64,000 bases of DNA from Amnibacterium flavum (GTDB lineage: Bacteria > Actinomycetota > Actinomycetes > Actinomycetales > Microbacteriaceae). Numbering within the stretch: position 1 is the first letter of the stretch; each line of letters opens with the position of its first letter. The notes under the pieces are model-generated. The model was not told the DNA's origin and searched no databases. It saw only the letters and a program-made list of their open reading frames with translations. Of this stretch, positions 2,509-55,056 are shown piece by piece. Made by a program: the position numbers and the translations under genes. The stretch is taken from positions 372,001 to 436,000 of the forward strand of contig NZ_QEOP01000001.1 in the NCBI RefSeq assembly GCF_003097495.1. Direction: 5' to 3'.

Positions 2509-4743
2509 TCAGCGTGCGACGAGATCCTTGATCGTCTTGTCGCCGGGCGAGACGGTCGTCGCGACGGCCTTGATCTCGGCGCGGCTCAGCAGCTCCTCCA
2601 TCTTGCGGCGACGGTTCTTGCCGATGAGGGTGACGACGATCCCCGAGTGGCCAGCGCGACCGGTGCGGCCGGCACGGTGCAGGTACGTCTTGTACTCCTC
2701 GGGCATGTCGGCCTGGATGACGAGTCCGATGTCGTCGACGTGGATTCCGCGTGCGGCGACGTCGGTGGCGACGAGCACGTCGACCTTGCCGCTCGTCAGA
2801 CGCTCGAGGCTGCGGGTCCGGCGGGCCTGGTTCAGGTCGCCGTGCAGGCTCGTCGCGGGAACCCCCATGTCGCTGAGCTCGTCGGCCAGCTGCTCCGCGA
2901 ACGCACGGGTGCGGGCGAAGACCAGGGTCTTGCCGCGACCCGCGGCGAGCTCGGCGACGAGGCGGACCTTGTCGCCCTGGTCGATGAGCAGCAGGCGATG
3001 ATCGATGTTGGAGTTCGACTGATCCTCGCCGGCGACCTCGTGGACCGACGGGTTCGGCAGGAACTCCTCGACGAGCGATGCGACACCCGAGTCGAGCGTG
3101 GCCGAGAACAGCAGGCGCTGCGCATCGGGACGCGTGAGACGCAGGATGCGCTGCACGGGCTCGAGGAATCCGAGGTCGCACATGTGGTCGGCCTCGTCGA
3201 GGACGACGACGGAGACCTCGGACAGGTCGAGGTGACCCTGCTCGACGAGGTCCTCGATGCGGCCGGGCGTGCCGATGATGATGTCGACACCGCGGTTGAG
3301 CGCACCCACCTGACGGGCCTGGGGAACGCCGCCGTAGATCTGCGTGGTGAACAGGCCGACGCTGCGCGCGATGGGCTGCACCGTGCGGTCGATCTGCAGG
3401 GCGAGCTCGCGGGTCGGGGCGAGGATGAGCGCACGGGGTGCACGTCCCATGGCCCGCTTGGCGCCGCCGCCGTTCTCCATGAGCCGCTCGACGAGAGGCG
3501 CGCCGAACGCGATGGTCTTGCCGGAGCCGGTGCGGCCACGGCCGAGCACGTTGAGCCCGCTGAGCACGTCGGGGATCGTCGCCGCCTGGATGGGGAACGG
3601 CGACTCGGCGCCGAGCTCCGCGAGGGTGCGGACGATGTTCGAACCGAGCCCCAGGTCTCCGAACGTGACGCCCTCGACCTCTGACGCGACGGTCGCGGTC
3701 GCCTCGAGGCGTTCGAGGACGACGTCTTCGACGTTCGCCATGTCGCGGTTCGGGCGGCCGTAGAACTCGGACTCGCCGTAGTTCACGCTGCGCCCCTCTG
3801 CGGCACGGGGGCGCTCGAAGCGGCCGCCCTCGGGACGCTCGTGACGAGGAGCGCGGTCGTTGCGATCGAAAGTGCGCGCGGGACGCTCGTCGCGGACGGG
3901 ACGGCCGTCACGCGTCGGGCGGGCGCCGGGCTCGTAGGCGCGGGCGGAGCGGTCGCCGCGGGGGGCGCGATCGTTGCGATCGTTCGTGTACGGACGGTCT
4001 CCACGAGGGGCACGGTCGTTCCGGTCGTTGGTGTACGGACGGTCTCCACGAGGGGCACGGTCGTTCCGGTCGTTGGTGTACGGACGGTCCCCACGAGGGG
4101 CACGGTCGTTCCGGTCGTTGGTGTACGGACGGTCCCCACGAGGAGCCCGATCGTTCCGGTCATTCGAGTACGGACGATCCCCACGAGGAGCCCGATCGCT
4201 CCGGTCGTTCGAGTACGGGCGATCCCCACGAGGAGCGCGGTCGCTCCGGTCGTTCGAGTAGGGACGGTCACTGCGCGGGGCGCGGTCGTCGCGCGAGTAG
4301 CGGTCGTCGCGCTGCGGGCGCTCGTCGCGCTGCGGGCGCTCGTCGCGCTGCGGGCGGTCGTTGCGGGAGTAGCGGTCGTCACGAGCGGAGGCGCTGTTGC
4401 GACCCCCCGAATACCGGTCGTCGCGGGGTGCGCGGTTGCGGTCACGGTCGCCGAAGCGCTCGTTCTGACCCTGACGTGCACGGCGCTCTTCGCCGGCCGC
4501 GGCGCCGGGGCGCTTCGGACGCGACTCGGGCGGGGTCCAGTCGGGACGACGCTCGCGACGGTCGTTCGTCTCGGGGCGTCCACGAGCGGCGCGGTCGTCG
4601 TTCGACCAGCGGTTCTTGGCGGGCGCCGCGTCGGACGCGGGACGGTAGCCGCGGTGCTTGGGGCTGACGCTGCTCGGCTTGCTGCCGCGCGCTGCGCCCG
4701 CGCCACCGCGGCGGGGAGAGGAATTACCACTGAATGAAGGCAT
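2509..4743 (-). CDS. DEAD-box ATP-dependent RNA helicase with repeat-rich N-terminal extension
   Basis: 744 residues. The first ~340 are basic and low-complexity (rich in R, D, N, P, G) and contain seven near-identical 15-residue repeats (about 155-266). The helicase core follows: Q motif about 361-386, motif I TGSGKT 405-410, PTRELA, DEAD 516-519, SAT 547-549, then domain 2 with TDVAARG and HRAGRTGR 689-696. It unwinds structured RNA in ribosome assembly or mRNA turnover. The disordered tail is at the N terminus, whereas many bacterial paralogues carry it at the C terminus. I chose the ATG at 4743 because AGGAG lies upstream at suitable spacing; an in-frame ATG 17 codons earlier has no such site. 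A ~190-nt leader is predicted from the promoter at 4941-4969. Confidence 0.92.
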   Translation of the reverse strand: MPSFSGNSSPRRGGAGAARGSKPSSVSPKHRGYRPASDAAPAKNRWSNDDRAARGRPETNDRRERRPDWTPPESRPKRPGAAAGEERRARQGQNERFGDRDRNRAPRDDRYSGGRNSASARDDRYSRNDRPQRDERPQRDERPQRDDRYSRDDRAPRSDRPYSNDRSDRAPRGDRPYSNDRSDRAPRGDRPYSNDRNDRAPRGDRPYTNDRNDRAPRGDRPYTNDRNDRAPRGDRPYTNDRNDRAPRGDRPYTNDRNDRAPRGDRSARAYEPGARPTRDGRPVRDERPARTFDRNDRAPRHERPEGGRFERPRAAEGRSVNYGESEFYGRPNRDMANVEDVVLERLEATATVASEVEGVTFGDLGLGSNIVRTLAELGAESPFPIQAATIPDVLSGLNVLGRGRTGSGKTIAFGAPLVERLMENGGGAKRAMGRAPRALILAPTRELALQIDRTVQPIARSVGLFTTQIYGGVPQARQVGALNRGVDIIIGTPGRIEDLVEQGHLDLSEVSVVVLDEADHMCDLGFLEPVQRILRLTRPDAQRLLFSATLDSGVASLVEEFLPNPSVHEVAGEDQSNSNIDHRLLLIDQGDKVRLVAELAAGRGKTLVFARTRAFAEQLADELSDMGVPATSLHGDLNQARRTRSLERLTSGKVDVLVATDVAARGIHVDDIGLVIQADMPEEYKTYLHRAGRTGRAGHSGIVVTLIGKNRRRKMEELLSRAEIKAVATTVSPGDKTIKDLVAR
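3946..4281 (-). repeat. 45-bp in-frame tandem repeats within the helicase gene
   Basis: Seven full copies and a partial one of a 45-bp unit, coding the 15-residue motif NDRAPRGDRPYTNDR with minor changes (S/N, T/S). The middle copies are nearly identical at DNA level, so copy number could change by slippage without shifting the frame. Confidence 0.9.
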
Positions 4744-4940
4744 GAAGAAGTGCTCCTGAAAAGGGCCGCAGAATGGCGGCATGATCCCGGGCACATCGGC
4801 GGCCGGGCCGGATTCGAATCGGATGTTGATCCAGCGATCCGCTGGCGGAACCGGCCCTGCGTGATCACAGTGCCCTGGAATAGATCTGAATCAGGGCCGC
4901 ACCGGCGTCACCGATGCTCTCGTCACGAGCCGACCGAACT

Positions 4941-4969
4941 ACGTTACCGGAACATCGCCGGTCTGTCAC
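4941..4969 (-). promoter_or_regulatory. promoter of the helicase gene with long 5' leader
   Basis: On the minus strand GTGACA (4969-4964) and TAACGT (4946-4941) are separated by exactly 17 nt, close to the sigma-70-type consensus. Transcription from here would start near 4934, giving a leader of about 190 nt before the ATG at 4743. Long leaders are typical of cold-induced DEAD-box helicase mRNAs. I see no gene in the leader. Confidence 0.5.
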
Positions 4970-4976
4970 CAGCCGA

Positions 4977-7900
4977 TCAGACGGCGGATGCCTGCTCGCG
5001 CTCGGCCTCGCGCGCCCGTCGGAGCCCCGCCCGGCGTTCGAAACCGCCGTACACGAGCGAGTAGAGGACGGGGAGGACGACGAGCGTCAGCACCGTCGAC
5101 GACACCAGTCCCCCGATGACGACGAGGGCGAGCGGCTGCGAGATGAACCCGCCTCCGCCGGTCAGACCGAGGGCCATCGGCAGCAGCGCGAAGATGGTCG
5201 CGAGCGCGGTCATCAAGATCGGACGGAGACGGCGGGTGGCGCCCTCCGTGACGGCCTGGACGACGGGCAGTCCTCGATCCCGATACTGATTCACCAGGTC
5301 GACGAGCACGATCGCGTTCGTCACCACGATTCCGACCAGCATCAGCAGGCCGATGATCGACGGGACGCCGAGCGGGATGCCCGTGACGACCTGGAGCAGG
5401 ATCGCGCCGGTCGCCGCGAACGGAACCGAGACGAGCAGCAGCAGCGGCTGCAGCAGGCTGCGGAAGGTCGCGACCATGACCACGTAGACGATGAGGATGG
5501 CGGCCAGCAGCGCGAGGAAGAGCTGGCTGAAGGCGTCACCCTGGTCGGACGAGACCCCACCGAGGGTCGCATCGGTGCCGGTCGGCAGGTCGATATCAGC
5601 GAGCGCCTGCGTCACCTGCGCGTTCGCGGCGGTCAGGTCGTCGGACGCGGGGGTGACCGAGACGGTTGCGCTGCGGGTACCGTTCACCGTCGAGATGCTC
5701 GACGGGCCGTCGGTCACTTCCACTGCGGCGAGGGAGTCCAATCGGACAGGCCCCCGAACCGTCGGCACCTCGAGTGCGGCCAGACCGTCACGGGTCGTCG
5801 GCACCGATGTCGGCTCGACGTAGATCGTCAGCTGCTGGTCGTCGATCGTGATCGACCCGAGCGCCGACGGCTGCATGGCCTGCGAGACGAATCCGGCGAG
5901 CGCGACCTCGGTGTAGCCGGCGGCGGATGCCGCGTCTCGATCGACGGCGACCTGGATGAAGGGCTGGGCGGCCTCCAGGTTGCTGGTCGCCTCGGCGACC
6001 CCGTCGAGGTCGCGCATCGCCGTCAGGACCTGGTCGGCCGCAGCCTGCAGGTCCTCCTGGTTGCTCGCCGTGATGTCGACGTCGATCGCGCTCGAGGTGC
6101 CGAATCCGCTCGACGCCGCCACCGAGAACGTGCCGGCGTCCTCGAGGGCGTCGAGGGTGTTGCGCACGTCGACCTGCAGGGCGTCCGCGTCGGCGTCGTC
6201 GCTCGTGGTGATCGAGTAGGTGGCCTGCGTCGATCCGCCGCCTCCCCTGAACGCCGCGAGCGCCCCGCCAGCGCTGCCGAGCGAGACCTGGACGGTCTCG
6301 ATCCCATCGATGTCCTGCAGCGCCTCCTCGGCGCGCTTCGCCGCGGCGTCCTGGACTTCGAGGCTGGTCCCGGGGTCGAACGTCTCGGTGACGGAGAGGG
6401 TGTTCTGACCGCTCGAGCCGAGGAAGTTGGTCTTCAGGAGCCCCAGCAGCGGAACCGTGCCGGCGAGGATCACGAACGCGATGACGAGCGTGATCACCTT
6501 GTGCGCGAGGGTCACGCGCAGAAGCGGGAGGTACCGCTTCTGCAGGCGCGTCGGCTGCTCGGCGGATTCGGCGCCGTCGGAGTGGCGGTGGACCTTGGGC
6601 GCCTTCAGCACCCAGTAGGCCAGCACCGGGACGATGCTGAGGGAGACGAACAGCGACGCGGCGAGCGCGATCGTGATGGTCAGCGCGAAGGGCCGGAAGA
6701 GCTCGCCCGTCGCTCCCTGCACGAACGAGATCGGGAGGAAGACGGCCACCGTCGTGATCGTCGACGCCGTCACGGCGCCGGCGACCTCGCGAACGGCTCG
6801 GGCGACCGTCGAGAGCTTGTCGTCATGGTCGGTCGCGAGATGCCGCTTGATGTTCTCGATGACGACGATCGAGTCGTCGACTACGCGCCCGATCGCGATC
6901 GTCAGAGCGCCGAGGGTCAGCAGATTGAGCGTGTACCCGGAGAACTGCATGCCGATGAACGTGATCAGCACGGAGGTCGGGATCGAGATGGCCGTGACGA
7001 GCGTCGCCCGCACGGAGAGGAGGAAGACGAGGATCACGATGACGGCGAACACCAGGCCGAGCAGACCCTCCGTCGCGAGCGACTCGATCGACTGCTCGAT
7101 GTACGGCGCCTGATCGAACACGGTCGTGAACGTGACGCCGTCGAGCTGGTCGGAGATGCCCGGCAGGGCGTCGGTGACGAGGTGGGACACCTCGACCGTG
7201 TTGGCCGCGGGCAGCTTGGTGACGGCGAGCGTCAGCGCGGGTTCGCCGTTGACGCGGGAGATCGAGGTGACGGGGTTGTCGACGAGCGCGACCGTCGCGA
7301 CGTCGCCGATCGTCGAGGTTCCGGCCGCGAGGGGCAGCGCGGCGATGTCGTCGACGGAGCCGAGTCGGGTTCCGGCCTGAACCGAGAGGGTCGAGCCGTC
7401 CTGCGTGATGCTGCCTGCCGGGACGAGCGCACCGCTCGATCGGACGACATCGCCGATGGCGGCGGGGGTCAGGCCGAGAGCCCCGAGCGCGGCGGTGTCG
7501 GGCGTGATCGTGATCCGCTGACCGGGAGCACCCGACAGCGTGACGCCGCGGACCCCGGCGAGTTCCTCGAGCGCGGGCAGCGCGACGCGGTCGAGGTCGT
7601 CGGCGAGAGTGGTGCTGTCACCCGACGCGGCGACCTGGATGATCGGGAAGTCGGAGATGCTGCCGCTGAGAACCTGCGGATCGAGGTCGTCGGGAAGGAT
7701 CGAGCGAATGCGGTTGATCGCCGCCGAGACCTTGTTCTCGCTCGCGGCGAGATCGACCCCGTAGGTGAAGGTCGCGCTGACGACCGAGCTGCCCGCACTG
7801 GAGGTCGCCGAAGTGCTCTCGACCCCCGCCACCCCGCGGATGGCCTGCTCGATAGGGGTACTCACACTGTCGTTCACGACCTCGGGAGACGCCCCCGTGT

Positions 7901-8054
7901 AGGTCGTGATGACCGCGATCTGCGGGAACTCGATCGACGGGATCAGCTCCTGTTTGAGCGAGGTCAGCGCGAGTCCGCCGAACACCGCCGCGACGATCGT
8001 GATGAGCGCGATGAGCGCCCTGTTCTTGAGGCTGGCGATCGCGAGGAGATGCAC
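4977..8054 (-). CDS. RND (HAE1/AcrB-type) efflux permease
   Basis: 1025-residue inner-membrane proton-driven exporter. The layout is that of AcrB: one N-terminal helix, a large periplasmic-type loop (about 35-325), helices 2-6 with the proton-relay pair D393-D394 in GRVVDDSIVVIEN, helix 7, a second large loop (about 555-830), and a last bundle of five helices. The start is a GTG; the protein opens (V/M)HLLAIASLKNRALIAL. No membrane-fusion or outer-membrane partner is adjacent, as expected for a Gram-positive host lacking a classical outer membrane. It stands alone between the helicase and the MocR gene. The substrate (lipid, drug or peptide) is unknown. Confidence 0.9.
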   Translation of the reverse strand: MHLLAIASLKNRALIALITIVAAVFGGLALTSLKQELIPSIEFPQIAVITTYTGASPEVVNDSVSTPIEQAIRGVAGVESTSATSSAGSSVVSATFTYGVDLAASENKVSAAINRIRSILPDDLDPQVLSGSISDFPIIQVAASGDSTTLADDLDRVALPALEELAGVRGVTLSGAPGQRITITPDTAALGALGLTPAAIGDVVRSSGALVPAGSITQDGSTLSVQAGTRLGSVDDIAALPLAAGTSTIGDVATVALVDNPVTSISRVNGEPALTLAVTKLPAANTVEVSHLVTDALPGISDQLDGVTFTTVFDQAPYIEQSIESLATEGLLGLVFAVIVILVFLLSVRATLVTAISIPTSVLITFIGMQFSGYTLNLLTLGALTIAIGRVVDDSIVVIENIKRHLATDHDDKLSTVARAVREVAGAVTASTITTVAVFLPISFVQGATGELFRPFALTITIALAASLFVSLSIVPVLAYWVLKAPKVHRHSDGAESAEQPTRLQKRYLPLLRVTLAHKVITLVIAFVILAGTVPLLGLLKTNFLGSSGQNTLSVTETFDPGTSLEVQDAAAKRAEEALQDIDGIETVQVSLGSAGGALAAFRGGGGSTQATYSITTSDDADADALQVDVRNTLDALEDAGTFSVAASSGFGTSSAIDVDITASNQEDLQAAADQVLTAMRDLDGVAEATSNLEAAQPFIQVAVDRDAASAAGYTEVALAGFVSQAMQPSALGSITIDDQQLTIYVEPTSVPTTRDGLAALEVPTVRGPVRLDSLAAVEVTDGPSSISTVNGTRSATVSVTPASDDLTAANAQVTQALADIDLPTGTDATLGGVSSDQGDAFSQLFLALLAAILIVYVVMVATFRSLLQPLLLLVSVPFAATGAILLQVVTGIPLGVPSIIGLLMLVGIVVTNAIVLVDLVNQYRDRGLPVVQAVTEGATRRLRPILMTALATIFALLPMALGLTGGGGFISQPLALVVIGGLVSSTVLTLVVLPVLYSLVYGGFERRAGLRRAREAEREQASAV

Positions 8055-8097
8055 CTTCGCGATTATCCCGGATCGATGTAACGGGGAAGCATCGGTC

Positions 8098-9534
8098 TCA
8101 GACGACCGCCGACAGCGACGACGTCTCGCTCGAGACGGGCGCGTCGGCCACGTCCGCCCATACCTCGGCGAGGATGTCGACCGCGTTGCGCACAGCCTCC
8201 GGCCCCGGACCGAACGGGATGCGGATGAACCGCTCGTACGCGCCGTCGAGACCGAACCACGGGCCGGCCGGGATGCGCAGGCCGCGATCGCGGGCGCCGA
8301 TCGCGAGCTGCGAGCTGACCGGCCGGTCGAAATGCACCCAGGCGGCGAGCCCCCCGTCGACTCGCGGCATCCGCCAGCTCGGCAGCCTCTCGGCGAGCGC
8401 TGCAGCGAGGGCGTCGCGCGCGATCAGATGCTCAGCTCGGCGGTGCTCGAGGATGGCGTCCAAGTCGGCGAGCAGCTCGGTCACGATCAGCTGGTCGAGC
8501 ACGGCCGTGCCGAGATCGCCGTGCGGCCGGGCGATCGCGAGTTCGGCGATGACGTCCTCGCTCGCTCGCAACCAGCCCACCCGGAGTCCGCCCCACATGG
8601 TCTTGCTCGCCGAGCCGATAGTGACGACCGAGGTGCCGGCCGGTACCACAGCCGCGAAGGGTGCACGCCGGCCGCGGTCGATGTCGAGCTCCCCGGTCGT
8701 CTCGTCGATCAGCAGGGTGCTGCCCGACTCGCGGGCCGCGCGGGCGATGCGCTCGCGTGTCGTCTCCGGCATGGTCCGCGCGGTCGGGTTGTGGAAGTCG
8801 GGCATCAGGTAGGCGACCTTGGGCGCGACGCCCCGGATCAGCTCGACGGCCTCATCGGCCTTCCACCCGTGGGTCGCGTCGACGGCGAGCGGGATGAGCC
8901 GTGCGCCGGCCAGACGGAGCGCCTCGTAGGCGTGCGGGTAGCCCGGGGACTCCACCACCGCACGGTCGCCCCGGCCGAGCAGCACCCGGGCGGCCAGGGT
9001 GATGGCGGCCTGGGCGCCGGAGGTCACCATGATCTGGGTCGGCCGGGTGGGCAGTCCGCGCGCTGTGTAGCGTTCGGCGAGCGCTTCTCGGAGCTGCGGG
9101 AGTCCGATGAGTTCGTATCCGGGACCTCCGAGCACCGACGGCAACGCGCTGACCGCTCGTTCGGCGGCCCACTGGAACCCGGGGGTCGCCCCTGCGGACG
9201 CGGTCGTGAAGTCGAGCCGGGGCCCCAGCGGGCCGAGCGACCCGTGCCGGTGGGCGTGGGTTCCGGGAATGCGGATGATGCTTCCCGATCCGCGCCGGGT
9301 CTCGACGTAGCCCGATGCACGCAGCTCATCCAGCGCGGCGCCGATGGTCGTGCGGCTGACACCGAGCCGGTCGGCGAGTTCGCGCTCGGACGGGAGTCGG
9401 CTTCCCGCCGGGATCCGGCCGTCGATCGCGAGCAGCCGGATGCGTGCCGCGAGCACCGCGTAACCGGCCCCGTCACCGTCGCGCCAGCCGGCGAGCAGGT
9501 CGGCGAGCTGCTGCGGGCTGACGGTGCGGACCAT
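8098..9534 (-). CDS. MocR-family (GntR/aminotransferase fusion) transcriptional regulator
   Basis: 478 residues. Residues about 20-90 form a GntR winged helix (SRLPSERELADRLGVSRTT), and 110-470 a fold-type I aminotransferase domain with the PLP-binding lysine K311 in SASKTMWGG. Such proteins bind PLP as an effector and control vitamin B6 or membrane-protein genes. It is divergent from a YczE-type membrane gene 60 bp away, a pairing known for the YczR subgroup of MocR regulators. The ATG is preceded by a -10 box TACAGT exactly 6 nt upstream, so the mRNA is probably leaderless. A MocR-type box sits just upstream of that -10, which suggests autoregulation. Confidence 0.9.
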   Translation of the reverse strand: MVRTVSPQQLADLLAGWRDGDGAGYAVLAARIRLLAIDGRIPAGSRLPSERELADRLGVSRTTIGAALDELRASGYVETRRGSGSIIRIPGTHAHRHGSLGPLGPRLDFTTASAGATPGFQWAAERAVSALPSVLGGPGYELIGLPQLREALAERYTARGLPTRPTQIMVTSGAQAAITLAARVLLGRGDRAVVESPGYPHAYEALRLAGARLIPLAVDATHGWKADEAVELIRGVAPKVAYLMPDFHNPTARTMPETTRERIARAARESGSTLLIDETTGELDIDRGRRAPFAAVVPAGTSVVTIGSASKTMWGGLRVGWLRASEDVIAELAIARPHGDLGTAVLDQLIVTELLADLDAILEHRRAEHLIARDALAAALAERLPSWRMPRVDGGLAAWVHFDRPVSSQLAIGARDRGLRIPAGPWFGLDGAYERFIRIPFGPGPEAVRNAVDILAEVWADVADAPVSSETSSLSAVV

Positions 9535-9540
9535 CAGACC

Positions 9541-9560
9541 ACTGTAGCGAAAGTGGACCT
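9541..9560 (-). promoter_or_regulatory. MocR -10 box and AAAGTGGACCT operator
   Basis: TACAGT reads on the minus strand at 9546-9541, 6 nt from the regulator's ATG. Immediately upstream, AAAGTGGACCT (plus strand, 9550-9560) agrees in its first nine bases with the AAAGTGGWCTA motif bound by the corynebacterial MocR protein PdxR. The site lies within the divergent region and could control both genes. Confidence 0.55.
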
Positions 9561-9594
9561 TTTCTTAGATACCAATTCGCGTTTCACTCATGAT

Positions 9595-10209
9595 ATGGGT
9601 TCACGTCATTCCGTCCGCATACCGACTCTTCTCGTCGGGCTCGCGCTGTACGGGATCGCCGACGGCATGATCGTGCAGGCCGCGATCGGCGTGAGTCCCT
9701 GGGCGGTGCTCGCACAGGGGATCTCCACGCAGACCGGCCTGCTCTTCGGGGTCGTGACCAACGTGATCGGAGCGCTCCTCCTTCTTCTCTGGATCCCGCT
9801 GCGGCAGAAGCCCGGGGTCGGGACACTGCTCAACGTGCTCATCGTCGGTTCGATGGCCCAGGTCGCGATCTGGCTGATCCCCGCCCCGGAACCGATCGTC
9901 GGGAAGGTCGCCTTATTCGCCGGCGGACTTCTGCTGCTCGCGGCTGCGACGGGGATCTACGTGGGAGCCGACTACGGGGCAGGCCCCCGCGACGGACTCA
10001 TGACCGGCGTCTCCAAGCGATTCGGCTGGCCGATCTGGCTGTCGCGCTCGACGATCGAGATCACCGTCCTCGCGGCCGGCTGGCTGCTCGGCGGCAATGT
10101 CGGCGTCGGGACGCTGGCGTTCGCCGTGTTCATCGGACCGCTCTGCCACCGCACCATCCCGCTGCTCGCGCTGCGGGCACCGCGAACAGCGGCCCCCGCG
10201 GCCGGCTGA
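9595..10209 (+). CDS. YczE/YitT-like integral membrane protein
   Basis: 204 residues with five to six hydrophobic helices and no soluble domain. The conserved opening (LYGIADGMIVQAAIGVSPWAV) and the turn YVGADYGAGPRDGLMTG around residues 118-138 are typical of the YczE family of predicted transporters. The ATG at 9595 is the only in-frame ATG after the MocR start and has no clear ribosome-binding site. The divergent MocR gene is the probable regulator. The substrate is unknown; a link with vitamin B6 or amino-acid-derived compounds is only suggested by the regulator class. Confidence 0.8.
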   Translation: MGSRHSVRIPTLLVGLALYGIADGMIVQAAIGVSPWAVLAQGISTQTGLLFGVVTNVIGALLLLLWIPLRQKPGVGTLLNVLIVGSMAQVAIWLIPAPEPIVGKVALFAGGLLLLAAATGIYVGADYGAGPRDGLMTGVSKRFGWPIWLSRSTIEITVLAAGWLLGGNVGVGTLAFAVFIGPLCHRTIPLLALRAPRTAAPAAG

Positions 10210-10224
10210 GGTCACCGACAAGGC

Positions 10225-10470
10225 AGGCACCCGCCGCCCGTTGAGCCCGTCGAAACGAGTGGCCGCACCCGCCCGCCCGCCCGCCCGCCCGCCCATTGAG
10301 CGCAGCGAAATGAAGGGCGGAGGCGAGGGGTCGTTCCTCCCTTCGCATCGCTTCGCTCAGCGGGCGGCGTCTTCGCATCGCTTCGCTCAGCGGACGGGCT
10401 CTTCGCTCGGCGGGCGGGGCGTTTCGACGGGCTCAACGGGCGGCTACCTCGGCTCGACGGGCGGGTGGCG
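10225..10470. repeat. REP-like palindromic repeat cluster 2
   Basis: The gap between the YczE gene and pgi carries both repeat types: TTGAGCCCGTCGAAACGA and CCCATTGAGCGCAGCGAAA on one side, several CTTCGCATCGCTTCGCTCAG copies, and two TCGACGGGCT-type copies on the other. A run of (GCCC) units precedes the first full element. A weak pgi promoter (TAGGTT, 10486-10491) lies just after the cluster. No gene is seen. Confidence 0.75.
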
Positions 10471-35083: not shown

Positions 35084-35686
35084 TCAGTGCTGGTTCTGAC
35101 CGATGGCCAGGAAGCGGATCGGGACCTCGAGCAGCTCCTGCGGCCCGTGCGGGGCTTCGCCGTCGATGAGCAGCGAGTCGCCGGGGCGCAGGTGGTACCT
35201 GTACGAGCCGTGGCCGTAGACCATCTCGCCCTCGAGCATGTAGAAGAACTCGGTGCCGGCGTGCTGGAACTGCGGGAACACCGCCGAGCTCTCGGTCAGG
35301 GTGACGAGGGTCGGGTCGATCGCGCCGTCGATGCCTTTGAGCAGGCCGAGCTGGCGGTACTCGTGGCCGAGCCGGGTGCCGCTGCGCACGGTGACGCTGC
35401 CGCTGCCCGACGGGGTGAAGACGGCCTCGCGGTCGACATCGGCACCACGGAACAGCGCTGTGACCGGAACGCCGAGGCCATCGGCCAGCCGCTGCAGGGT
35501 GGTGAGACTCGACGATGTGGTGGCGGTCTCGACCCGGGAGATCATCGCCTTGGAGATGCCCGTCTTGGTCGCCAGGTCTGCGGATGACATGCGCTGGGCG
35601 GTGCGGTACTCGCGGACCCGTTCGGCGATGACGGCCTCAAGCCGACCGGTCGTCTCCGACTCGTCGGAGCCCTCGGTGGTCGTCAC
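35084..35686 (-). CDS. XRE-family regulator with cupin sensor domain
   Basis: 200 residues: helix-turn-helix 16-75 (RMSSADLATKTGISKAMISRVE) and a C-terminal cupin_2 domain (about 110-195; TEFFYMLEGEMVYGHGSYRYHLRPGD). The class often controls polyamine, amino-acid or sugar genes. It lies 23 nt past the ABC ATPase stop, but TAGTAT 6 nt upstream of its GTG suggests its own leaderless promoter. Confidence 0.9.
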   Translation of the reverse strand: MTTTEGSDESETTGRLEAVIAERVREYRTAQRMSSADLATKTGISKAMISRVETATTSSSLTTLQRLADGLGVPVTALFRGADVDREAVFTPSGSGSVTVRSGTRLGHEYRQLGLLKGIDGAIDPTLVTLTESSAVFPQFQHAGTEFFYMLEGEMVYGHGSYRYHLRPGDSLLIDGEAPHGPQELLEVPIRFLAIGQNQH

Positions 35687-48250: not shown

Positions 48251-49372
48251 TCAGGCGGCGTGGGCGGGGAGGCGGAAGAGGTCGGGTGCGTCAGCCGTTC
48301 CGGTGGCGACGTCGGCGATCAGCTCACCGAGCAGGGGCGCGAACTTGGCGCCATGACCTGAGCACGGGGACGCGACGACGATCGAGCCGATGCGGTCGAT
48401 CACGAAGTTCTCCGTCGGGGTGCTCGTGTAGAGACACGTCGTCTCCGCGTACGGGACCGGCTCGACGTCCGGAAGCTGCCGCCGCACGTAGTCGATGATC
48501 CGTTCCCTCGCCTCGCGTCGCACCAGCCCATCCCGACCCGAGGCGGTCGTGGGCAGCCCGAAGTCGTGCTCAGCGATCTTGAATCCGCGGAACCCGGCGT
48601 CGCGACCGCCGGGCAGCGAATAGACGCTCAGCCGATCCTTGTTGACAAAAATCGGCCAATCGGTCGGATCGCCGACCGATTCGGGGAACGCGAAATGAAA
48701 CGCCTGCTGCTGAGTGACCACCAGCGGGGGCAGCCGCGCCGCCCACTCCCCCGGCAGCACATCGAGTAGTTCCGGCAACCAGGCGCCCGCCGACACGATC
48801 AGCACGGCGCAGTCGATCTCTTGCCCATCGGTCGACGTGACCACCTGACCGGTCGGACACTCCCGGATGGCCGCCGCAGCCCACCCCGTGAGCACCTGCG
48901 CCCCCGCGAGGCGAGCCTGCTCGACCATCGTCAGCACCGCCCGCTCCGCATCGATGACACCGGCACCGGCGTGATGGACGACATCCCCGTCGAAGCGGTG
49001 CTGCGGCCAGCGCTCCATCGCGGCTCCGGCGCTCAGGCGCTCGTTGTCGAGCCCGAGGCGCGTGAGGCTCGCGACGATGCCATCGAGGTCGCGACCGTCG
49101 CCGAAGTCGAGGCCACCCGTGATGGTGAGGATGGCTTCCCCGGATGCAGCCTCGAGCTCGCGCCAGCCATCGAGCGCTCGCACGGTCAGCGCGGAGTGGA
49201 ACTCGTCGGGGTACGCGTGCCGGAAGATGCGGGCGCTGCCGTGAGAGCTCCCACCCGCGTTGGCCGGAGTGGTCGCCTCAGCGAGCACGACCTCCTCGCC
49301 GTGCTGCGCCAGCCGCCATGCCGTCGCGGCACCCGCGAGACCGGCACCGAGCACCAGGTACTTCGTCTGCAT
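48251..49372 (-). CDS. monomeric sarcosine/N-methyltryptophan-oxidase-like FAD enzyme
   Basis: 373 residues. N-terminal FAD Rossmann motif LGAGLAGAATAWRLA, SSHGSARIFRHAY near 42-54, and C313 in TTCLYTSTP, at the place of the cysteine that carries covalent FAD in MSOX/MTOX enzymes. SPCSGHGAKFAPLLGE near 335-350 is the conserved flavin-site loop. The family oxidises secondary amines (N-methyl amino acids) to amine plus aldehyde. It starts only 4 nt after the MgsC-like gene stop, so I infer that it acts on the N-alkylglutamate made by that complex. Confidence 0.9.
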   Translation of the reverse strand: MQTKYLVLGAGLAGAATAWRLAQHGEEVVLAEATTPANAGGSSHGSARIFRHAYPDEFHSALTVRALDGWRELEAASGEAILTITGGLDFGDGRDLDGIVASLTRLGLDNERLSAGAAMERWPQHRFDGDVVHHAGAGVIDAERAVLTMVEQARLAGAQVLTGWAAAAIRECPTGQVVTSTDGQEIDCAVLIVSAGAWLPELLDVLPGEWAARLPPLVVTQQQAFHFAFPESVGDPTDWPIFVNKDRLSVYSLPGGRDAGFRGFKIAEHDFGLPTTASGRDGLVRREARERIIDYVRRQLPDVEPVPYAETTCLYTSTPTENFVIDRIGSIVVASPCSGHGAKFAPLLGELIADVATGTADAPDLFRLPAHAA

Positions 49373-49376
49373 CGGT

Positions 49377-50690
49377 TCAGAGTCCTGCGCCGGGAATCCA
49401 CGAGGTGCCGGCCAACGGAACACGAGCCATCGCGGCCGACTCGATGGTCAATGCGACGAGGTCTTCGGGCTCGAGATTGAGTACATGCGATTTTCCGCAT
49501 GCACGTGCGATCGTCTGCGCCTCAAGGGTCAGAACCCTCAGATAGTTGGCCAGACGCCGCCCACCCTCGATGGGGTCGAGTCGCGCGGACAGCTCGGGGT
49601 CCTGCGTCGTGATGCCCGCGGGATCGCGACCGGCCTGCCAGTCGTCGTAGAACCCTGCCGACGAACCGAGCTTCTGGTACTCGTCCTCCAGCTCGGGCGC
49701 ATTGTCGCCGAGAGCGATGAGCGCGGCGGTGCCGATCGACACCGCATCCGCCCCGAGGGCCAAGGCCTTCGCGACGTCGGCTCCTGTTCTGATGCCTCCT
49801 GAGACGATCAGCTGGACCTCGCGATGCACCCCCAGACCCTGCAGTGCCTCGACGGCGGGTGGGATGGCGGCGAGAGTCGGGATGCCGACATGCTCGATGA
49901 AGACGTCCTGAGTCGCCGCCGTGCCTCCCTGCATGCCGTCGAGCACCACGACGTCGGCGCCGGCCTTCACGGCGAGCTGGGTGTCGTAATAGGGCCGGGA
50001 CGCACCGATCTTCACGAAGATCGGCTTCTCCCAGTCGGTCAGCTCGCGAAGTTCGGCGATCTTGATGGTCAGATCGTCCGGGCCCGTCCAGTCGGGGTGC
50101 CGGGCGGCGGACCGCTGGTCGATGCCGACCGGCAGGGTGCGCATGCCCGCGACGCGCTCCGTGACCTTCTGGCCCAGCAGCATCCCGCCGCCGCCGGGCT
50201 TCGCCCCCTGGCCGAGCACGATCTCGATGGCGTCGGCCGCGCGGATCGCGTCGGGGTTCATGCCGTAACGGGACGGCAGGTACTGGTAGACGAGCGTCTT
50301 CGAGTGGCCGCGCTCCTCGGGCGTCATCCCGCCGTCGCCCGTGGTCGTCGACGTTCCGACGGCGCTGGCACCGCGGCCGAGCGCCTCCTTCGCGTTGGCG
50401 GACAGGGCGCCGAAGCTCATACCCGCGATCGTGATCGGGATATCGAGATGGATGGGCTTCGACGCGTGCCTTGCGCCGAGGGTGACATCGGTGTCGCACC
50501 TCTCGCGGTAGCCCTCGAGCGGGTAGCGCGACATGCTCGCGCCCAGGAATAGGAGGTCGTCGAAGTGCGGCAGCGCACGCTTCGCCCCCGCCCCGCGGAT
50601 GTGGTAGATCCCGGTCTCGGCCGCGCGCTGGATGCCGCGGATCGTGGCCCGGTCGAACGTGGCGGATTCGCGCAGCGCCCGGTCAGTCAT
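49377..50690 (-). CDS. FMN-binding glutamate synthase-like subunit (MgsC/GlxD type), lacking Fe-S cysteines
   Basis: 437 residues corresponding to the FMN/2-oxoglutarate barrel of glutamate synthase (GSTTTGDGGMTPEE-like loop around 111-126, KPGGGGMLLGQKV 164-176, FVKIGAS, VLDGMQGGTAAT 249-260, IVSGGIRTGADVAKALALGA). In GltB a C-x5-C-x4-C set precedes P-x-G-[VI]-[AT]-T-Q and binds [3Fe-4S]. Here the matching residues before PAGITTQ (357-363) are A345, W351 and D356, and the whole protein has only two cysteines (C65, C398). It forms an operon with MgsA- and MgsB-like genes. Confidence 0.88.
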   Translation of the reverse strand: MTDRALRESATFDRATIRGIQRAAETGIYHIRGAGAKRALPHFDDLLFLGASMSRYPLEGYRERCDTDVTLGARHASKPIHLDIPITIAGMSFGALSANAKEALGRGASAVGTSTTTGDGGMTPEERGHSKTLVYQYLPSRYGMNPDAIRAADAIEIVLGQGAKPGGGGMLLGQKVTERVAGMRTLPVGIDQRSAARHPDWTGPDDLTIKIAELRELTDWEKPIFVKIGASRPYYDTQLAVKAGADVVVLDGMQGGTAATQDVFIEHVGIPTLAAIPPAVEALQGLGVHREVQLIVSGGIRTGADVAKALALGADAVSIGTAALIALGDNAPELEDEYQKLGSSAGFYDDWQAGRDPAGITTQDPELSARLDPIEGGRRLANYLRVLTLEAQTIARACGKSHVLNLEPEDLVALTIESAAMARVPLAGTSWIPGAGL

Positions 50691-50716
50691 GGTGGTTCTC
50701 TTTCCCGTGGGGAGTG

Positions 50717-51406
50717 TCAGTACGCCGAGGAGTTCTCGGAATGGAAGTGGTACAGCGTGCGCGCCGAGCCGTAACGGCGGAACTCGGACGGCGACTCGGT
50801 GCGGCCGGCCGCCGCCAGCAGTTCGGCCAGTTCGGCGAGATGCTCTTCGCGCATGGGCTTCTCGATGCAGTCGGACCCCAGGGAGCGCGCCTGCCCCTTG
50901 AGATAGATGCGGGTCTCGTAGATCGAGTCGCCGAGCGAGTCGCCGGCGTCGCCGCAGATGACCAGACGGCCGGCCTGCGCCATGAACGCCGACATGTGGC
51001 CGACGTTGCCGCCCACGACGATGTCGACCCCCTTCATCGAGATTCCGCAGCGGGCACCGGTCGTGCCGTCGATGACGAGGAGACCGCCGTGCGCGGTCGC
51101 GCCGGCCGACTGCGACGCGTTGCCCTTGACGTGCACGCGCCCCGACATCATGTTCTCGGCGAGCCCCGTACCGGCGCTGCCCTCGATCGTGACCGTGCCC
51201 TTCTGATGCATTCCGGCGGCGAAGTAGCCGACGTGGCCGTCGATGACGACGTCGATCTCGCTGTCGATCCCGACGGCGACGTTGTGCGCGCCGCCCGGGT
51301 TCGTCACCCGCCAGTGCTCGCCGTCGTGCGCCTTGTGCAGCGCCGAGTTGAGCTCGCGCACCGTCGAGACGTGAAGGTCGACGACCTCTTCGTTCAGAAC
51401 TCCCAC
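50717..51406 (-). CDS. GXGXG-motif glutamate synthase-like subunit (MgsB/GlxC type)
   Basis: 229 residues starting at a GTG that overlaps the upstream amidotransferase gene by 13 nt. It consists of the parallel beta-helix found at the C terminus of GltB, with repeated G-x2-G-x3-G turns (NVGHMSAFMAQAGRLVICG, GDAGDSLGDSIYE). In glutamate synthase this domain is structural; in N-methylglutamate synthase it is the separate MgsB subunit. The length matches GlxC/MgsB. Confidence 0.88.
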   Translation of the reverse strand: MGVLNEEVVDLHVSTVRELNSALHKAHDGEHWRVTNPGGAHNVAVGIDSEIDVVIDGHVGYFAAGMHQKGTVTIEGSAGTGLAENMMSGRVHVKGNASQSAGATAHGGLLVIDGTTGARCGISMKGVDIVVGGNVGHMSAFMAQAGRLVICGDAGDSLGDSIYETRIYLKGQARSLGSDCIEKPMREEHLAELAELLAAAGRTESPSEFRRYGSARTLYHFHSENSSAY

Positions 51407-52296
51407 GTGTACACCTCGCCGGGTTCAGGTTCGAAGATGTTGGCCGTCTCGATGCCGGGCAGGTCGACGAGCGCGCGGTACTCCGACGCGACGGCGACCC
51501 ACTGGTCGGTCTCGGCGATGATCGCGGGCTTGCAGGCGATCGGGTCGCGGAGCACCGCGAGGCCGTCGGCCGTGGTGACGACCAGCGTGTAGAACCCGTC
51601 GAAGGTCTCGCGCAGATTCTCGAGGCCCGTCGTCAGGTCGTCGCCCTCGCGCAGGCGCATCGCCAGGTAGCGGGCGGCGACCTCGGAGTCGTTCTCGCTG
51701 TCGAACTCGATTCCCTGCGCCCGAAGACCGCGGCGGATCGTGGCGTGGTTCGAGAAGGAGCCGTTGTGCACGAGGCACAGGTCGTCATCGACCGTGAACG
51801 GGTGGGATCCCGAGGCGGTGACCGCCGACTCCGTCGCCATCCGGGTGTGGGAGACGCCCTGGGTGCCCGAGACCGACGCGAGGCCGAAGGTCTCGGCCAG
51901 GTCGACGGGGTTGCCGACGCCCTTGAGGTTGGCGACGTGGGTACCGCGTCCGATCTGGCGCGCGCCCGGTGCGACGGCGCGGAGGGCGGCGGTCAGGATC
52001 GCGGTGTCGACCGCGGCGCTCACGAGCGTCGTATCGCCGAGTGTGCGGACCTCGACCGCGCCGGCGGACGGGAGCTCCGCGGCGAGCGCCGCCGACAGCT
52101 CCTCGTCGCTGGACGGGCTGTCGAGCAGAGTGACGGTCGACTGCCCAGCGTGGACGAAGCGCTCGACGTCGTACACGGCGATACCCGCCGAGTCGGGTCC
52201 GCGGTCGACGATCTCGCAGAGCATGGCGTGCATCATCGATCCGAGCTGCGGGCGCAGCGCCGGATCCTTGAGCTGCAGCGCGGCGATTCCGCACAT
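51394..52296 (-). CDS. class-II glutamine amidotransferase-like subunit (MgsA/GlxB type)
   Basis: 300 residues starting Met-Cys: C2 is the N-terminal nucleophile freed by Met removal. Other Ntn-amidotransferase blocks are GVSHTRMATES and CLVHNGSFSNHATIRRGL (about 147-191). In N-methylglutamate synthase this subunit hydrolyses the gamma-glutamyl amide and feeds the amine to the synthase site. It lies 45 nt downstream of the glutamine-synthetase-like gene. Confidence 0.9.
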   Translation of the reverse strand: MCGIAALQLKDPALRPQLGSMMHAMLCEIVDRGPDSAGIAVYDVERFVHAGQSTVTLLDSPSSDEELSAALAAELPSAGAVEVRTLGDTTLVSAAVDTAILTAALRAVAPGARQIGRGTHVANLKGVGNPVDLAETFGLASVSGTQGVSHTRMATESAVTASGSHPFTVDDDLCLVHNGSFSNHATIRRGLRAQGIEFDSENDSEVAARYLAMRLREGDDLTTGLENLRETFDGFYTLVVTTADGLAVLRDPIACKPAIIAETDQWVAVASEYRALVDLPGIETANIFEPEPGEVYTWEF

Positions 52297-52341
52297 GAGC
52301 CCACCTTCTTTCTGTTGCTGATCTCGTTTCGAGGGGTGCGG

Positions 52342-53682
52342 TCAGACCGCGGTGAGGTAGTTGTCGACTTCCCAGCTGGTCACGGTGTTGTGCCAGCGGA
52401 AGAACTCGTCCTGCTTGACGCCGGCGTAGTACTCGGCGACCCGGCCATCGAGGCCGAGTGCGTCGATGAGCACCGGGTCGGCGCGGAGCGCGTCGACCGC
52501 GTGCAGGAGAGTAGGCGGGAGGGCCGCGGCGCCGGGCTGCGGGACGCCCTTCTTCCCCGGATCCCCCGGGTCGGCGTCAGCACGGACACCGGAGAAGCCT
52601 GCGGCGAGCGTCGTGGCGATGGCGAGGTAGGGATTGGCCGAGCCGTCGCCGCCGCGAAGTTCGATGCGGTTCCCGTCGGGGACGCGGATGAAATGCGAGC
52701 GGTCGTTGCCGCCGTATCCGGCCGTCGTGGGCGACCAAGTCGCTCCCGACTCCGTCGTGACGGCGCCGCGGCGCTTGTAGGAGTTGACCGTCGGCGCGAG
52801 GAACGCGGAGAGACCGGCCGCGTGTTCGAGCACTCCCGAGACGAACGAGTAGGCGAGCGGCGACAGCCCCAGACCGCGCGCATCGTCCTCGGCGGGGAAC
52901 AGCGCCTGGTCGCCCTTCCAGAGCGAGATGTGCATGTGCATTCCGTTACCGGTGCGGTCGGTGAAGGGTTTGGGCATGAAGGTCGCCGTCATGTCGGCCT
53001 CCTCCGCGAGCATCGAGATGATGTAGCGGAGGGTGACGACCCGGTCAGCGGTCTGCAGGGCGTCGGAGTACTTGAAGTTCTGCTCGAACTGGCCGGCGCC
53101 GTCCTCGTGGTCGTTCGCGTAGTTGTCCCACCCGAGTGAGTTCATGGCCTTCGAGATCGAGGCCAGGTGGCCGAACATGCGTGTGACACCGCGAGCGTCG
53201 TAGCAGGGGCGGCCCGAGGTGTCGCGGGCGTCGGCGGTCACGAGTGTGCCATCCGCGTCCTTCTTGAGGAGGAAGTACTCGACCTCGGCGCCGACCATCG
53301 CGGTGATGCCCTCGGAGTCGAGTTCCGCCAGCAGGTTCTTGAGGATCACGCGGGGCGCGTAGGGCCACGGCTCACCGTCGACGTAGGGGTCGCAGTGCAC
53401 GAGCGCGAGGCCGGGGCGGATGAAGTCGAGGTTCGTGTAGCTGCTCGGGTCGGGCATGGCGATCAGGTCGGGATCGGACGGCACCTGGCCTATGGCGCCC
53501 GCCGCGAACCCCGCGAATCCGAGCGCACCCGCCTCGAGTTCGTCGAGCGCCTGGACGGGCACGAGCTTCGCGCAGGGCTTGCCGTTCATGTCGACGAATG
53601 TGGCGAGGAGGAACTCGACGCCGTCGGCCTTCACACGTTCAGCGAGGGTGGCGGGGGTGGTCGCCGCGAGTGGGTCTGTCAT
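52342..53682 (-). CDS. type III glutamine synthetase-like ligase (GlnT / gamma-glutamylmethylamide synthetase type)
   Basis: 446 residues. Metal and ATP-site motifs of the glutamine synthetase fold are intact: AEVEYFLL, GNGMHMHISLW, FIRVPDGNRIELRGGDGSANPYLA. Length and motif style match GlnT/GmaS, which ligate ammonia or a primary amine to the gamma-carboxyl of glutamate with ATP. TGGAG precedes the ATG. Its position at the head of the mgsABC-like genes points to an amine as acceptor. True glutamine synthesis cannot be excluded from sequence alone. Confidence 0.9.
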   Translation of the reverse strand: MTDPLAATTPATLAERVKADGVEFLLATFVDMNGKPCAKLVPVQALDELEAGALGFAGFAAGAIGQVPSDPDLIAMPDPSSYTNLDFIRPGLALVHCDPYVDGEPWPYAPRVILKNLLAELDSEGITAMVGAEVEYFLLKKDADGTLVTADARDTSGRPCYDARGVTRMFGHLASISKAMNSLGWDNYANDHEDGAGQFEQNFKYSDALQTADRVVTLRYIISMLAEEADMTATFMPKPFTDRTGNGMHMHISLWKGDQALFPAEDDARGLGLSPLAYSFVSGVLEHAAGLSAFLAPTVNSYKRRGAVTTESGATWSPTTAGYGGNDRSHFIRVPDGNRIELRGGDGSANPYLAIATTLAAGFSGVRADADPGDPGKKGVPQPGAAALPPTLLHAVDALRADPVLIDALGLDGRVAEYYAGVKQDEFFRWHNTVTSWEVDNYLTAV

Positions 53683-53844: not shown

Positions 53845-55056
53845 TCAGTCGTCGGCGAAGAAGCGGGACAGGATCGAGACGCTGTCCGTCGAGGTCGTCA
53901 CAGAGGGTGCCGCTGAGGCGCCCATCGGATCGCCGAGCGGAGCCGACGCCGCGAGGATCGGCTCGGGCTCACTGGAAGCACGCCGTCCCCCGAGCGCGGT
54001 GAAGACCTGACGCGCGAGAAGCCGGCCGGCGCGGTTCGCGCCGATCGTGCTCGCCGTCGGGCCGTAACCGGCGAAGAAGACGCGGGGATCCCGCTCCGCC
54101 GCTCCTGTGGTCACCACGACGCCGCCGGCCTTCTCGTGCAGTCGCAACGGGCTGAGGTGGCGGATGTCGGGGCGGAAGCCGGTCGCCCAGATGATCGCGT
54201 CGATTCGATCGCTGCTGCCGTCGGGCCAGACGACCGAGTCCTCGGTCAGTCGCTCGAAGAGCGGACGGGCGACGAGCACGCCGCGTTCGATCCCCGCGGC
54301 GATCCGGCGGGTCTTGGCGACACCCGTACCGCTCACGATGCTCGGGAGCGCCTTGCCCGCCCGCGCGGCGGCATCCTGCTCCGCCACCGCGTTGATCGCG
54401 TCCTCCAGATCGAGCGATCCGTGATCGCGGTAGTCGATCGGACGGCGGGACGTCCAGAACATCTTCGCCGCGACCCCCTCGAGCTCGAGGAGGAAGCCGA
54501 TGGCGGACGTGCCGCCGCCGACGACGAGAACGTTCTTGCCGCGGAACTCCTCCGCCGAGATGTAGCTCGACGTGTGCACCTGCCGCCCCTCGAACTGCCA
54601 CGCACCCGGATAGTAGGGAACGAACGGCGCACCCCAGGTTCCGGTCGCATTGACGAGCGCGAGTGCGGTGATCTCCCCGGCGGATGTCTGGACGACGAGG
54701 TCGGCACCACGGTCGAAGACGGCGCCCACCGTCACCGGGCGCTGCACCCGGAGGTCGTAGAACTGCTCGTACCGGCGGTAGTAGTCCTCGACCACCTCGC
54801 GCGCGGGCAGGCTGCGATCGGCGGTGTCGAAGCTCACCCCGAGGGCTTTCATGCCGGGCAGGTCATGAACCCGGTGAGCGGAGCCGAGGCGCAACGACTC
54901 CCACCGGTGCTGCCACGCCCCACCCGTCGACGGTCCGCGGTCGACGATGATCAGGTCGGTGCCCGGCTTGAGTCCGAGCTTCTGGAGGTAGTAGGCGACC
55001 GAGAGTCCGGCTTGGCCCGCGCCGATGACGACGACGGACGCGGTCTGTCGATTCAC
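53845..55056 (-). CDS. flavin-containing monooxygenase-like protein
   Basis: 403 residues from a GTG with GGAGGTGGAGA upstream. FAD motif GAGQAG (12-17), the FMO fingerprint F-x-G-x3-H-x3-Y as FEGRQVHTSSY (155-165), and the NADPH motif GGGTSA (180-185) are in order; ATGFRPD lies near the end. It could oxygenate amines, sulfides or ketones. It stands 162 bp upstream of the amine operon on the same strand, so a role in amine breakdown is possible but unproven. Confidence 0.85.
   Translation of the reverse strand: MNRQTASVVVIGAGQAGLSVAYYLQKLGLKPGTDLIIVDRGPSTGGAWQHRWESLRLGSAHRVHDLPGMKALGVSFDTADRSLPAREVVEDYYRRYEQFYDLRVQRPVTVGAVFDRGADLVVQTSAGEITALALVNATGTWGAPFVPYYPGAWQFEGRQVHTSSYISAEEFRGKNVLVVGGGTSAIGFLLELEGVAAKMFWTSRRPIDYRDHGSLDLEDAINAVAEQDAAARAGKALPSIVSGTGVAKTRRIAAGIERGVLVARPLFERLTEDSVVWPDGSSDRIDAIIWATGFRPDIRHLSPLRLHEKAGGVVVTTGAAERDPRVFFAGYGPTASTIGANRAGRLLARQVFTALGGRRASSEPEPILAASAPLGDPMGASAAPSVTTSTDSVSILSRFFADD

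Follow-up and report, generated by a model that had tools for sequence, protein, structure and literature searches.

The DNA stretch analyzed here (the window) comprises 64,000 nucleotides (nt) of Amnibacterium flavum (NZ_QEOP01000001.1, positions 372,001 to 436,000) and belongs to contig C1 of a genome assembly of 3.57 Mb in 13 contigs, rated 99.99% complete. A preliminary description of this stretch placed five packed minus-strand genes for an N-methylglutamate (NMG)-type amine assimilation route at positions 48251 to 53682, with the oxidase gene starting 4 nt after mgsC. All five open reading frames are present at these coordinates, the ATG of the oxidase gene lies 4 nt past the mgsC stop codon, and the protein families proposed at that time are borne out by matches to TIGR03105, GATase_6, GXGXG, Glu_synthase, and DAO. 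The five genes are as follows:

53682-52342, minus strand: gmaS, GmaS-like ligase of 446 amino acids (aa); TIGR03105; solved relatives 7cql and 9qur
52296-51394, minus strand: mgsA, class II amidotransferase subunit of the N-terminal nucleophile (Ntn) type, 300 aa, with Cys2; GATase_6/GATase_7
51406-50717, minus strand: mgsB, GXGXG subunit, 229 aa, GTG start; PF01493
50690-49377, minus strand: mgsC, flavin mononucleotide (FMN)-barrel subunit of a predicted N-methylglutamate synthase, 437 aa; PF01645
49372-48251, minus strand: Oxi, single-chain flavin adenine dinucleotide (FAD) oxidase, proposed N-methylglutamate oxidase, 373 aa, ATG start; DAO; fold of monomeric sarcosine oxidase (MSOX) and N-methyl-L-tryptophan oxidase (MTOX)

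The mgs genes run in the order A-B-C, and mgsA and mgsB overlap by 13 nt. The order gmaS-mgsA-mgsB-mgsC-oxidase was seen again across many genomes, so the arrangement is not due to chance. Its distribution is patchy, since MgsC was found in none of the five same-genus genomes sampled.

The window GmaS scored 564.7 bits against TIGR03105 (type III glutamate-ammonia ligase; cut-off, 469.6), and among solved structures it comes closest to 7cql and 9qur; 9qur is named glutamate-methylamine ligase. The catalytic residues of RhGmaS (Asp177, Glu186, and Arg312, as given in the available part of PMC7948447) are present as D191, E200, and R328 and are kept in 122, 121, and 122 of 122 actinobacterial rows, respectively. 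A wider set of ten RhGmaS positions (K30', A48', Y147, D177, E179, E186, N188, W300, R312, and R317) is likewise kept in the window protein and in 121 to 122 of these rows. Two residues to which the same excerpt assigns roles in glutamine synthetase (GS), i.e., the ammonium-site Asp50 and the flap residue Glu304, are replaced by Ala (A57) and Trp (W316) in 129 of 129 GmaS rows. Because the ammonium aspartate of GS is lost, an alkylamine is favored as the GmaS substrate.

The synthase is encoded as three separate subunits, namely, an Ntn amidotransferase, a GXGXG protein, and an FMN barrel. MgsA starts with MCGIA and matches GATase_6, MgsB matches GXGXG (PF01493; 41.8 bits; cut-off, 32.5), and MgsC matches Glu_synthase (PF01645; 298.9 bits; cut-off, 20.4). 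Identities to five plasmid-borne clusters (from Acinetobacter, Mycobacterium, Streptomyces, Methylobacterium, and Pseudomonas) are 47 to 57% for MgsA, 62 to 67% for MgsB, and 82 to 84% for MgsC, and MgsC is 80 to 81% identical to its counterparts in Paracoccus, Sinorhizobium, and Sphingobium. A comparison of 58 loci revealed two MgsC types that differ in the Fe-S region: type I carries LGDN...YDDWQxGxDPAG or a motif near it, and type II carries LGCN...CxxCxTGxCPVG. Type I is found in the window, in most actinomycetes compared, and in 7 of 8 proteobacterial loci (the exception being L100); the 3Fe-4S cysteines are intact in 12 actinobacterial loci and in L100. The window MgsC, which reads YDDWQAGRDPAG at the cysteine region, lacks the 3Fe-4S cysteines of GltB and has D329 after LIALG at the place of GltS residue 1102. 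The HMMER alignment of MgsC with GltS stops at window residue 328 (GltS 1101), just ahead of the 3Fe-4S ligands, which we take to be GltS residues 1102, 1108, and 1113. In glutamate synthase, electrons pass through this cluster on their way from NADPH or ferredoxin to FMN (PMC8097209, in its accessible portion). Because the ligand cysteines are missing, type I MgsC seemingly cannot take electrons from NADPH or ferredoxin via a 3Fe-4S cluster; a redox-neutral FMN reaction would fit it. The available text of PMC6237917 states the redox cofactor of the synthase as unknown and cites an older reaction of glutamate with methylamine, and the missing ligands make this question of the reductant directly testable.

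These features bear on whether the genes could be an ordinary extra set for ammonia assimilation (GlnT plus a split glutamate synthase) with an unrelated oxidase beside it. The database names (type III glutamate-ammonia ligase and glutamate synthase family) agree with such a set, and glutamine synthetase-like enzymes can be broad (PMC11335346, available part). Nevertheless, the replacement of GS Asp50 by Ala in 129 of 129 rows and of the Glu304 flap by Trp (roles from the excerpt of PMC7948447), as well as the loss from MgsC of the cysteines that serve the NADPH/ferredoxin path in glutamate synthase (PMC8097209, same portion), make it very improbable.

The position that follows mgsC, here called the slot, is in actinomycetes often taken by a single-chain FAD oxidase of one of two distinct kinds, Oxi or the SoxB-like OxiMyc. 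The conserved adjacency that the preliminary description named as a check was recovered among 80 GmaS loci (the best 80 of 388 relatives, a choice biased toward kin of the window): in 46 of them, Oxi lies no more than 1.5 kb past MgsC (≤100 bp in 39; 0.5 to 1.5 kb in 7), and 14 more have OxiMyc within 100 bp. OxiMyc lies >1.6 kb past MgsC in another 4 loci, 2 loci run into a contig end, and 1 has no MgsC. Pooling these loci with the regions fetched around MgsC places in our genome samples (see below) and with plasmid records gave 135 loci whose MgsC is full length (130 distinct rows; some genomes occur in both locus sets), with Oxi in 55, OxiMyc in 39, Sox genes in 8, and none of these in 33; two loci with MgsC of <400 aa and one without MgsC had been left out, and L136 was scored as "none" though OxiMyc adjoins its split MgsC. 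The oxidase gene begins before mgsC ends in 38 of the 55 Oxi loci and in all 39 OxiMyc loci, with an overlap of exactly 4 nt in 22 and 29 of them, respectively; gene calls in fetched loci were made by tblastn plus start choice, so spacings may be wrong by a few nt. Type II MgsC was seen in 17 loci (L073-L084, L100, L115, L123, L149, and L178), the slots of which hold OxiMyc (9 loci), SoxB/SoxA (5 loci), Oxi (1 locus), or nothing (2 loci).

Co-occurrence with MgsC was also counted by genome. Our samples covered 299 genomes of the family, 394 genomes of the class, and regions of ≤20 kb around 47 MgsC places outside the window genome. In the family sample, MgsC was found in 5 genomes and Oxi (E ≤ 1e-60) in 32; Oxi was present in all 5 MgsC genomes and in 27 of the 294 others (Fisher test, 1e-5 by genome and 0.005 by genus). 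In the class sample, MgsC was found in 44 genomes, including that of the window, and 30 of the 32 genomes with OxiMyc (E ≤ 1e-100) have MgsC (Fisher test, 6e-32 by genome and 6e-10 by genus). The other two (G473 and G539) are fragmented, and their genus has MgsC elsewhere. The 44 MgsC genomes divide into 30 with OxiMyc, 1 with a split OxiMyc (G595; locus L079), 8 with Oxi (the window genome, G344, G376, G391, G409, G449, G483, and G497), and 5 with SoxB and SoxA matches beside MgsC (G422, G493, G552, G568, and G591); the class sample was not searched with the Oxi query (P0005), and no absence of Oxi from OxiMyc genomes is claimed. Oxi lies 650 bp past MgsC in G376 and ~5 kb upstream of it in G391. 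Among 11 genomes in which the slot is empty or Oxi lies elsewhere, OxiMyc was found in 6, i.e., all six f25 genomes with an empty type I slot; the 5 without it are three Pseudoclavibacter-type genomes (Oxi elsewhere), G376, and G391. Mapped onto an MgsC tree, the Oxi/OxiMyc/Sox label must change at least 9 times, or 21 times if "none" is treated as a state; the tree was built quickly, its branches are long and many of its forks are open, and the Sox label of L098, L099, and L101 was assigned by hand (their Sox genes lie outside the slot). These counts suggest that oxidase swaps happened repeatedly across related genomes.

Oxi matches DAO (149.5 bits; cut-off, 27.9); against NCBIfam, it falls short of the thresholds set for both N-methyltryptophan oxidase (226.5 of 257 bits) and soxA_mon (179.3 of 479.65 bits). 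Its AlphaFold2 model (pLDDT [predicted local distance difference test], 92.1) was matched by Foldseek to Bacillus MSOX (template modeling [TM] score, 0.90) and MTOX (TM score, 0.85 to 0.87). Although its identity to the solved relatives, in a list taken as far as NikD, is only 23 to 30%, Oxi shares with MSOX/MTOX the fold and the positions R49, R52, Y55, K265, C315, and K348 (MSOX numbering), whereas the H269 position is H, Y, or F among the Oxi family. Lys265 is presumably catalytic and Cys315 presumably the site of flavin attachment, in which case Oxi would carry a covalent flavin. These two residues, along with Arg52, Tyr55, and Lys348, are kept in 54 of 54 Oxi proteins linked to MgsC and 13 of 13 unlinked ones; positions 52, 55, and 348 bind the substrate carboxylate in MSOX (PMC12582975, available part). 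By fold and residues, Oxi is predicted to oxidize amino acids of the N-methyl or a similar kind; the sequence does not tell which one. The term "single-chain" is what the Oxi sequence shows, and "monomeric," the word in the preliminary description, goes further. One HMMER alignment, in a stretch next to a gap, suggested S252 as the equivalent of MSOX Tyr254; this pairing was dropped, as another alignment and the YGLP/YGFP motif place Y251 opposite Tyr254. OxiMyc (e.g., L007, 10299-11489) resembles Oxi in operon position, overlap, and membership of the DAO superfamily; among NCBIfam models, it comes closest to soxB (124 bits) and N-methyltryptophan oxidase (121.5 bits) and falls far short of the threshold for each, and a tblastn search of L007 with P0005 gave no match at 50 bits.

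In proteobacterial NMG clusters (gmaS, mgsABC, and mgdABCD), the last step belongs to the four-subunit dehydrogenase MgdABCD. Its absence, which the preliminary description had named as a check, agrees with our searches: in the window genome, a Paracoccus MgdC query gave a single 25% match to residues 629 to 968 of 977, and neither SoxD nor a full SoxA was found. SoxD was not found in 31 of the 35 other type I MgsC genomes (all 35 of the survey). It was found in the remaining 4 (E below 1e-33), and because of these 4 matches the search is known to be able to detect SoxD; the 14 genomes intended as controls gave no match and hence provide no control. Within 9 kb of the cluster, no SoxD match was seen in 82 distinct actinobacterial type I loci with a single-chain oxidase, the set that also underlies the neighbor counts below. 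SoxA matches near the OxiMyc clusters L147, L160, and L176 were rejected, since they represent a GcvT-like gene and extend over no more of SoxA than its C-terminal part. The four genomes with SoxD elsewhere would allow an MgdABCD enzyme encoded away from the cluster to perform the last step, but with no SoxD match and a 25% partial MgdC match in a 99.99% complete genome, and 31 of 35 relatives without SoxD, this explanation is strongly disfavored for the window and scarcely credible.

The NMG-type route proposed earlier is therefore supported by conserved adjacency together with the failure to find the four-subunit enzyme. The cluster is likely an NMG-type operon with a single-chain last enzyme that serves to assimilate a primary amine, most likely methylamine. 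GmaS would join methylamine to the gamma-carboxyl group of glutamate in an ATP-dependent reaction, MgsABC would move the methylamine onto 2-oxoglutarate to give N-methylglutamate, and Oxi, in place of MgdABCD, would use FAD and O2 to oxidize the N-methyl group, yielding glutamate, formaldehyde, and H2O2. The reaction and substrate of each enzyme are putative assignments. That Oxi acts on the N-methylglutamate made by this MgsABC is probable, a view drawn from operon position and phyletic pattern only, and methylamine is fairly likely to be the main amine.

Several observations weigh against this reading. The slot is empty in the 33 of 135 MgsC loci scored as "none," and 13 of the 80 GmaS loci have no oxidase downstream. 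The Oxi family also occurs without MgsABC, and its substrate is thus not settled by family alone. The two nearest unlinked Oxi relatives (62% and 59% identity) have neither MgsABC nor a gene for an M20 hydrolase, and 7 of 13 fetched loci without MgsABC (of 36 family Oxi places) pair Oxi with such a hydrolase; five of these seven are in genomes without MgsC. K245 was rejected as a gamma-carboxylate partner and family marker, as no pocket column cleanly splits linked from unlinked Oxi. At the position of the RhGmaS amine-pocket residue Gln175, the window GmaS has Ala (A189), as do all 122 actinobacterial rows, whereas all 7 proteobacterial rows have Gln. Finally, no Amt, dimethylamine monooxygenase, or MscR match was found in the window, and the best three of nine MscR matches in the genome are far under the NCBIfam cut-off; on these three, MscR was rejected as the genome's own formaldehyde sink.

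The occurrence of Oxi without MgsABC raises the prospect that Oxi serves another pathway, acting on sarcosine or another N-methyl amino acid and merely riding in the operon, while the true last enzyme went unrecognized. Its nearest solved relatives are sarcosine oxidases, only 5 of the 299 family genomes have MgsC against 32 with Oxi, and the M20 hydrolase is its partner instead in the seven unlinked loci. On the other hand, two oxidase families share one slot, mostly with overlapping codons and with repeated swaps, OxiMyc is nearly confined to MgsC genomes (30 of 32), and no MgdABCD was found in the genome for the step; we regard this prospect as unlikely. Somewhat less improbable, though still doubtful, is the same pathway with a larger amine (ethylamine, isopropylamine, or ethanolamine), producing an N-alkylglutamate and a larger aldehyde. 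The Ala at the Gln175 position makes a larger amine possible (Gln175 is described as an amine-pocket residue, outside the three residues called strictly conserved, in the available part of PMC7948447), and methylamine-specific neighbors are lacking in the window. Set against this are the 82 to 84% identity of MgsC to the MgsC of the five plasmid clusters and the linkage of the relatives' clusters to a dimethylamine-monooxygenase subunit (DUF3445; 17 of 107 distinct actinobacterial loci without the Fe-S cysteines) and to MscR (4 of 82).

Within 9 kb in the 82 loci, the most frequent neighbor is an XRE-cupin regulator (72 loci), followed by Amt (45 loci), the M20 hydrolase (31 loci), the DUF3445 subunit (11 loci), HutD (PF05962; 10 loci), and MscR (4 loci). 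The presence of Amt, DUF3445, and MscR (mycothiol formaldehyde dehydrogenase) in relatives points to methylamine as the probable substrate. Relatives of the regulator of the Streptomyces cluster L008 are linked to most actinobacterial clusters. The window has one such gene, which stands beside sugar ABC transporter-like genes, 13.7 kb from the cluster:

35084-35686, minus strand: XRE and cupin regulator, 59% identical to the L008 regulator (next best in the same genome, 29%), a possible regulator of the pathway

The M20 hydrolase scored 612 bits against NF006770 (allantoate amidohydrolase; cut-off, 372). An AllC-like M20 gene, sometimes with a HutD-like gene, stands beside the cluster in L105, L106, L108-L111, L113, L114, L116, L117, L119, L121, L122, L125, and others, with either oxidase type. 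It follows MgsC in L109 and L111, where no Oxi was seen. The loci that pair Oxi with M20 and have no MgsABC on site are L087-L090, L092, L094, and L095; Amt is near in four of these seven and HutD in one, and in L089 and L090 MgsABC lies on another contig. The M20 hydrolase, Oxi, and MgsABC thus form a network in which any two may pair without the third. One reading of this network is an N-formylglutamate product, and another is an Oxi role wider than N-methylglutamate. In the former, the single-chain oxidases would oxidize N-methylglutamate twice, via a hydroxymethyl form, and M20 would split the resulting N-formylglutamate into glutamate and formate. Such a double oxidation would explain the AllC-like M20 and the HutD-like protein, which we take to bind formylglutamate, with either oxidase and with Oxi alone, and if true would constitute a methylamine route without free formaldehyde; we consider it improbable. 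The window has no adjoining M20 gene, and the best genomic M20 (47% identity) is on another contig. A hut operon behind the M20/HutD genes was discounted, as no hut enzyme was recognized by eye in three loci (hut models were not used).

Compared with the proteobacterial NMG pathway, the window shares the GmaS and MgsABC families, with MgsC identities of ~80 to 84%, the GmaS residues kept, and the 3Fe-4S cysteines likewise missing from MgsC (L100 excepted). In Paracoccus, Sinorhizobium, and Sphingobium, the gmaS and mgs genes are near SoxBDAG (Mgd), FolD, and PurU, and in Paracoccus also near dimethylamine monooxygenase genes. Unlike these clusters, the window has gmaS first, no mgdABCD, FolD, or PurU match, and an oxidase directly after mgsC. 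Mycobacterium strains 141 and 155 share gma-mgsA-mgsB-mgsC as consecutive genes, their last step was assigned to a distant MgdA-D locus, and an oxidase beside mgsC is not mentioned in the available part of that report (PMC5023230). We found OxiMyc in the slot of the Mycobacterium plasmid L007 and in that of Mycolicibacterium wolinskyi (L174). For SAR11, GlnT, GlxBCD, and SoxBDAG were assigned, and monomeric sarcosine oxidase was given other demethylations (PMC3160333, available part). The term "N-methylglutamate oxidase" occurs in no paper of the literature searched, which mostly excludes subscription journals, and no title or abstract opening among the matches listed names a single-chain enzyme for this step. 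What appears to be new here is a variant of the known NMG pathway with a single-chain last enzyme in many actinomycetes.

This variant matters for genome-based surveys. PMC7948447 (available part) describes gmaS as a validated marker of organisms that use methylamine, and a search for mgdABCD would score many actinomycetes, including named loci of Arthrobacter, Streptomyces, Mycolicibacterium, and Microbacterium, as lacking the last step though a replacement is present. One reaction was apparently taken over repeatedly by two different oxidase families. Because Oxi and OxiMyc would use O2, judging by homology, no electrons would pass to the respiratory chain and no C1 unit to tetrahydrofolate; such a last step would suit methylamine as a source of nitrogen rather than carbon.

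Promoter scans and a tandem-repeat search of the window gave nothing useful. An ArsO-like flavin monooxygenase gene (53845-55056; 276.9 bits; cut-off, 425) lies 162 nt upstream of gmaS and was rejected as an operon member, because no match of ≥45 bits was found in actinobacterial loci outside L103-L182 (these were not searched). On the unrooted MgsC tree, the proteobacterial type I rows (L006, L009, L010, L098, L099, L101, and L102) sit among the actinobacterial rows, and their group adjoins the clade of the window and Micrococcales-like rows; with modest support, this placement hints at cross-phylum transfer. One of these rows, L010, is the Pseudomonas aeruginosa plasmid pF076, in which mgsABC is annotated with an FAD oxidoreductase and a cupin gene upstream (4292-5934 and 7336-10302); no gmaS is annotated there, in a stretch that is cut by the record start and incompletely annotated.

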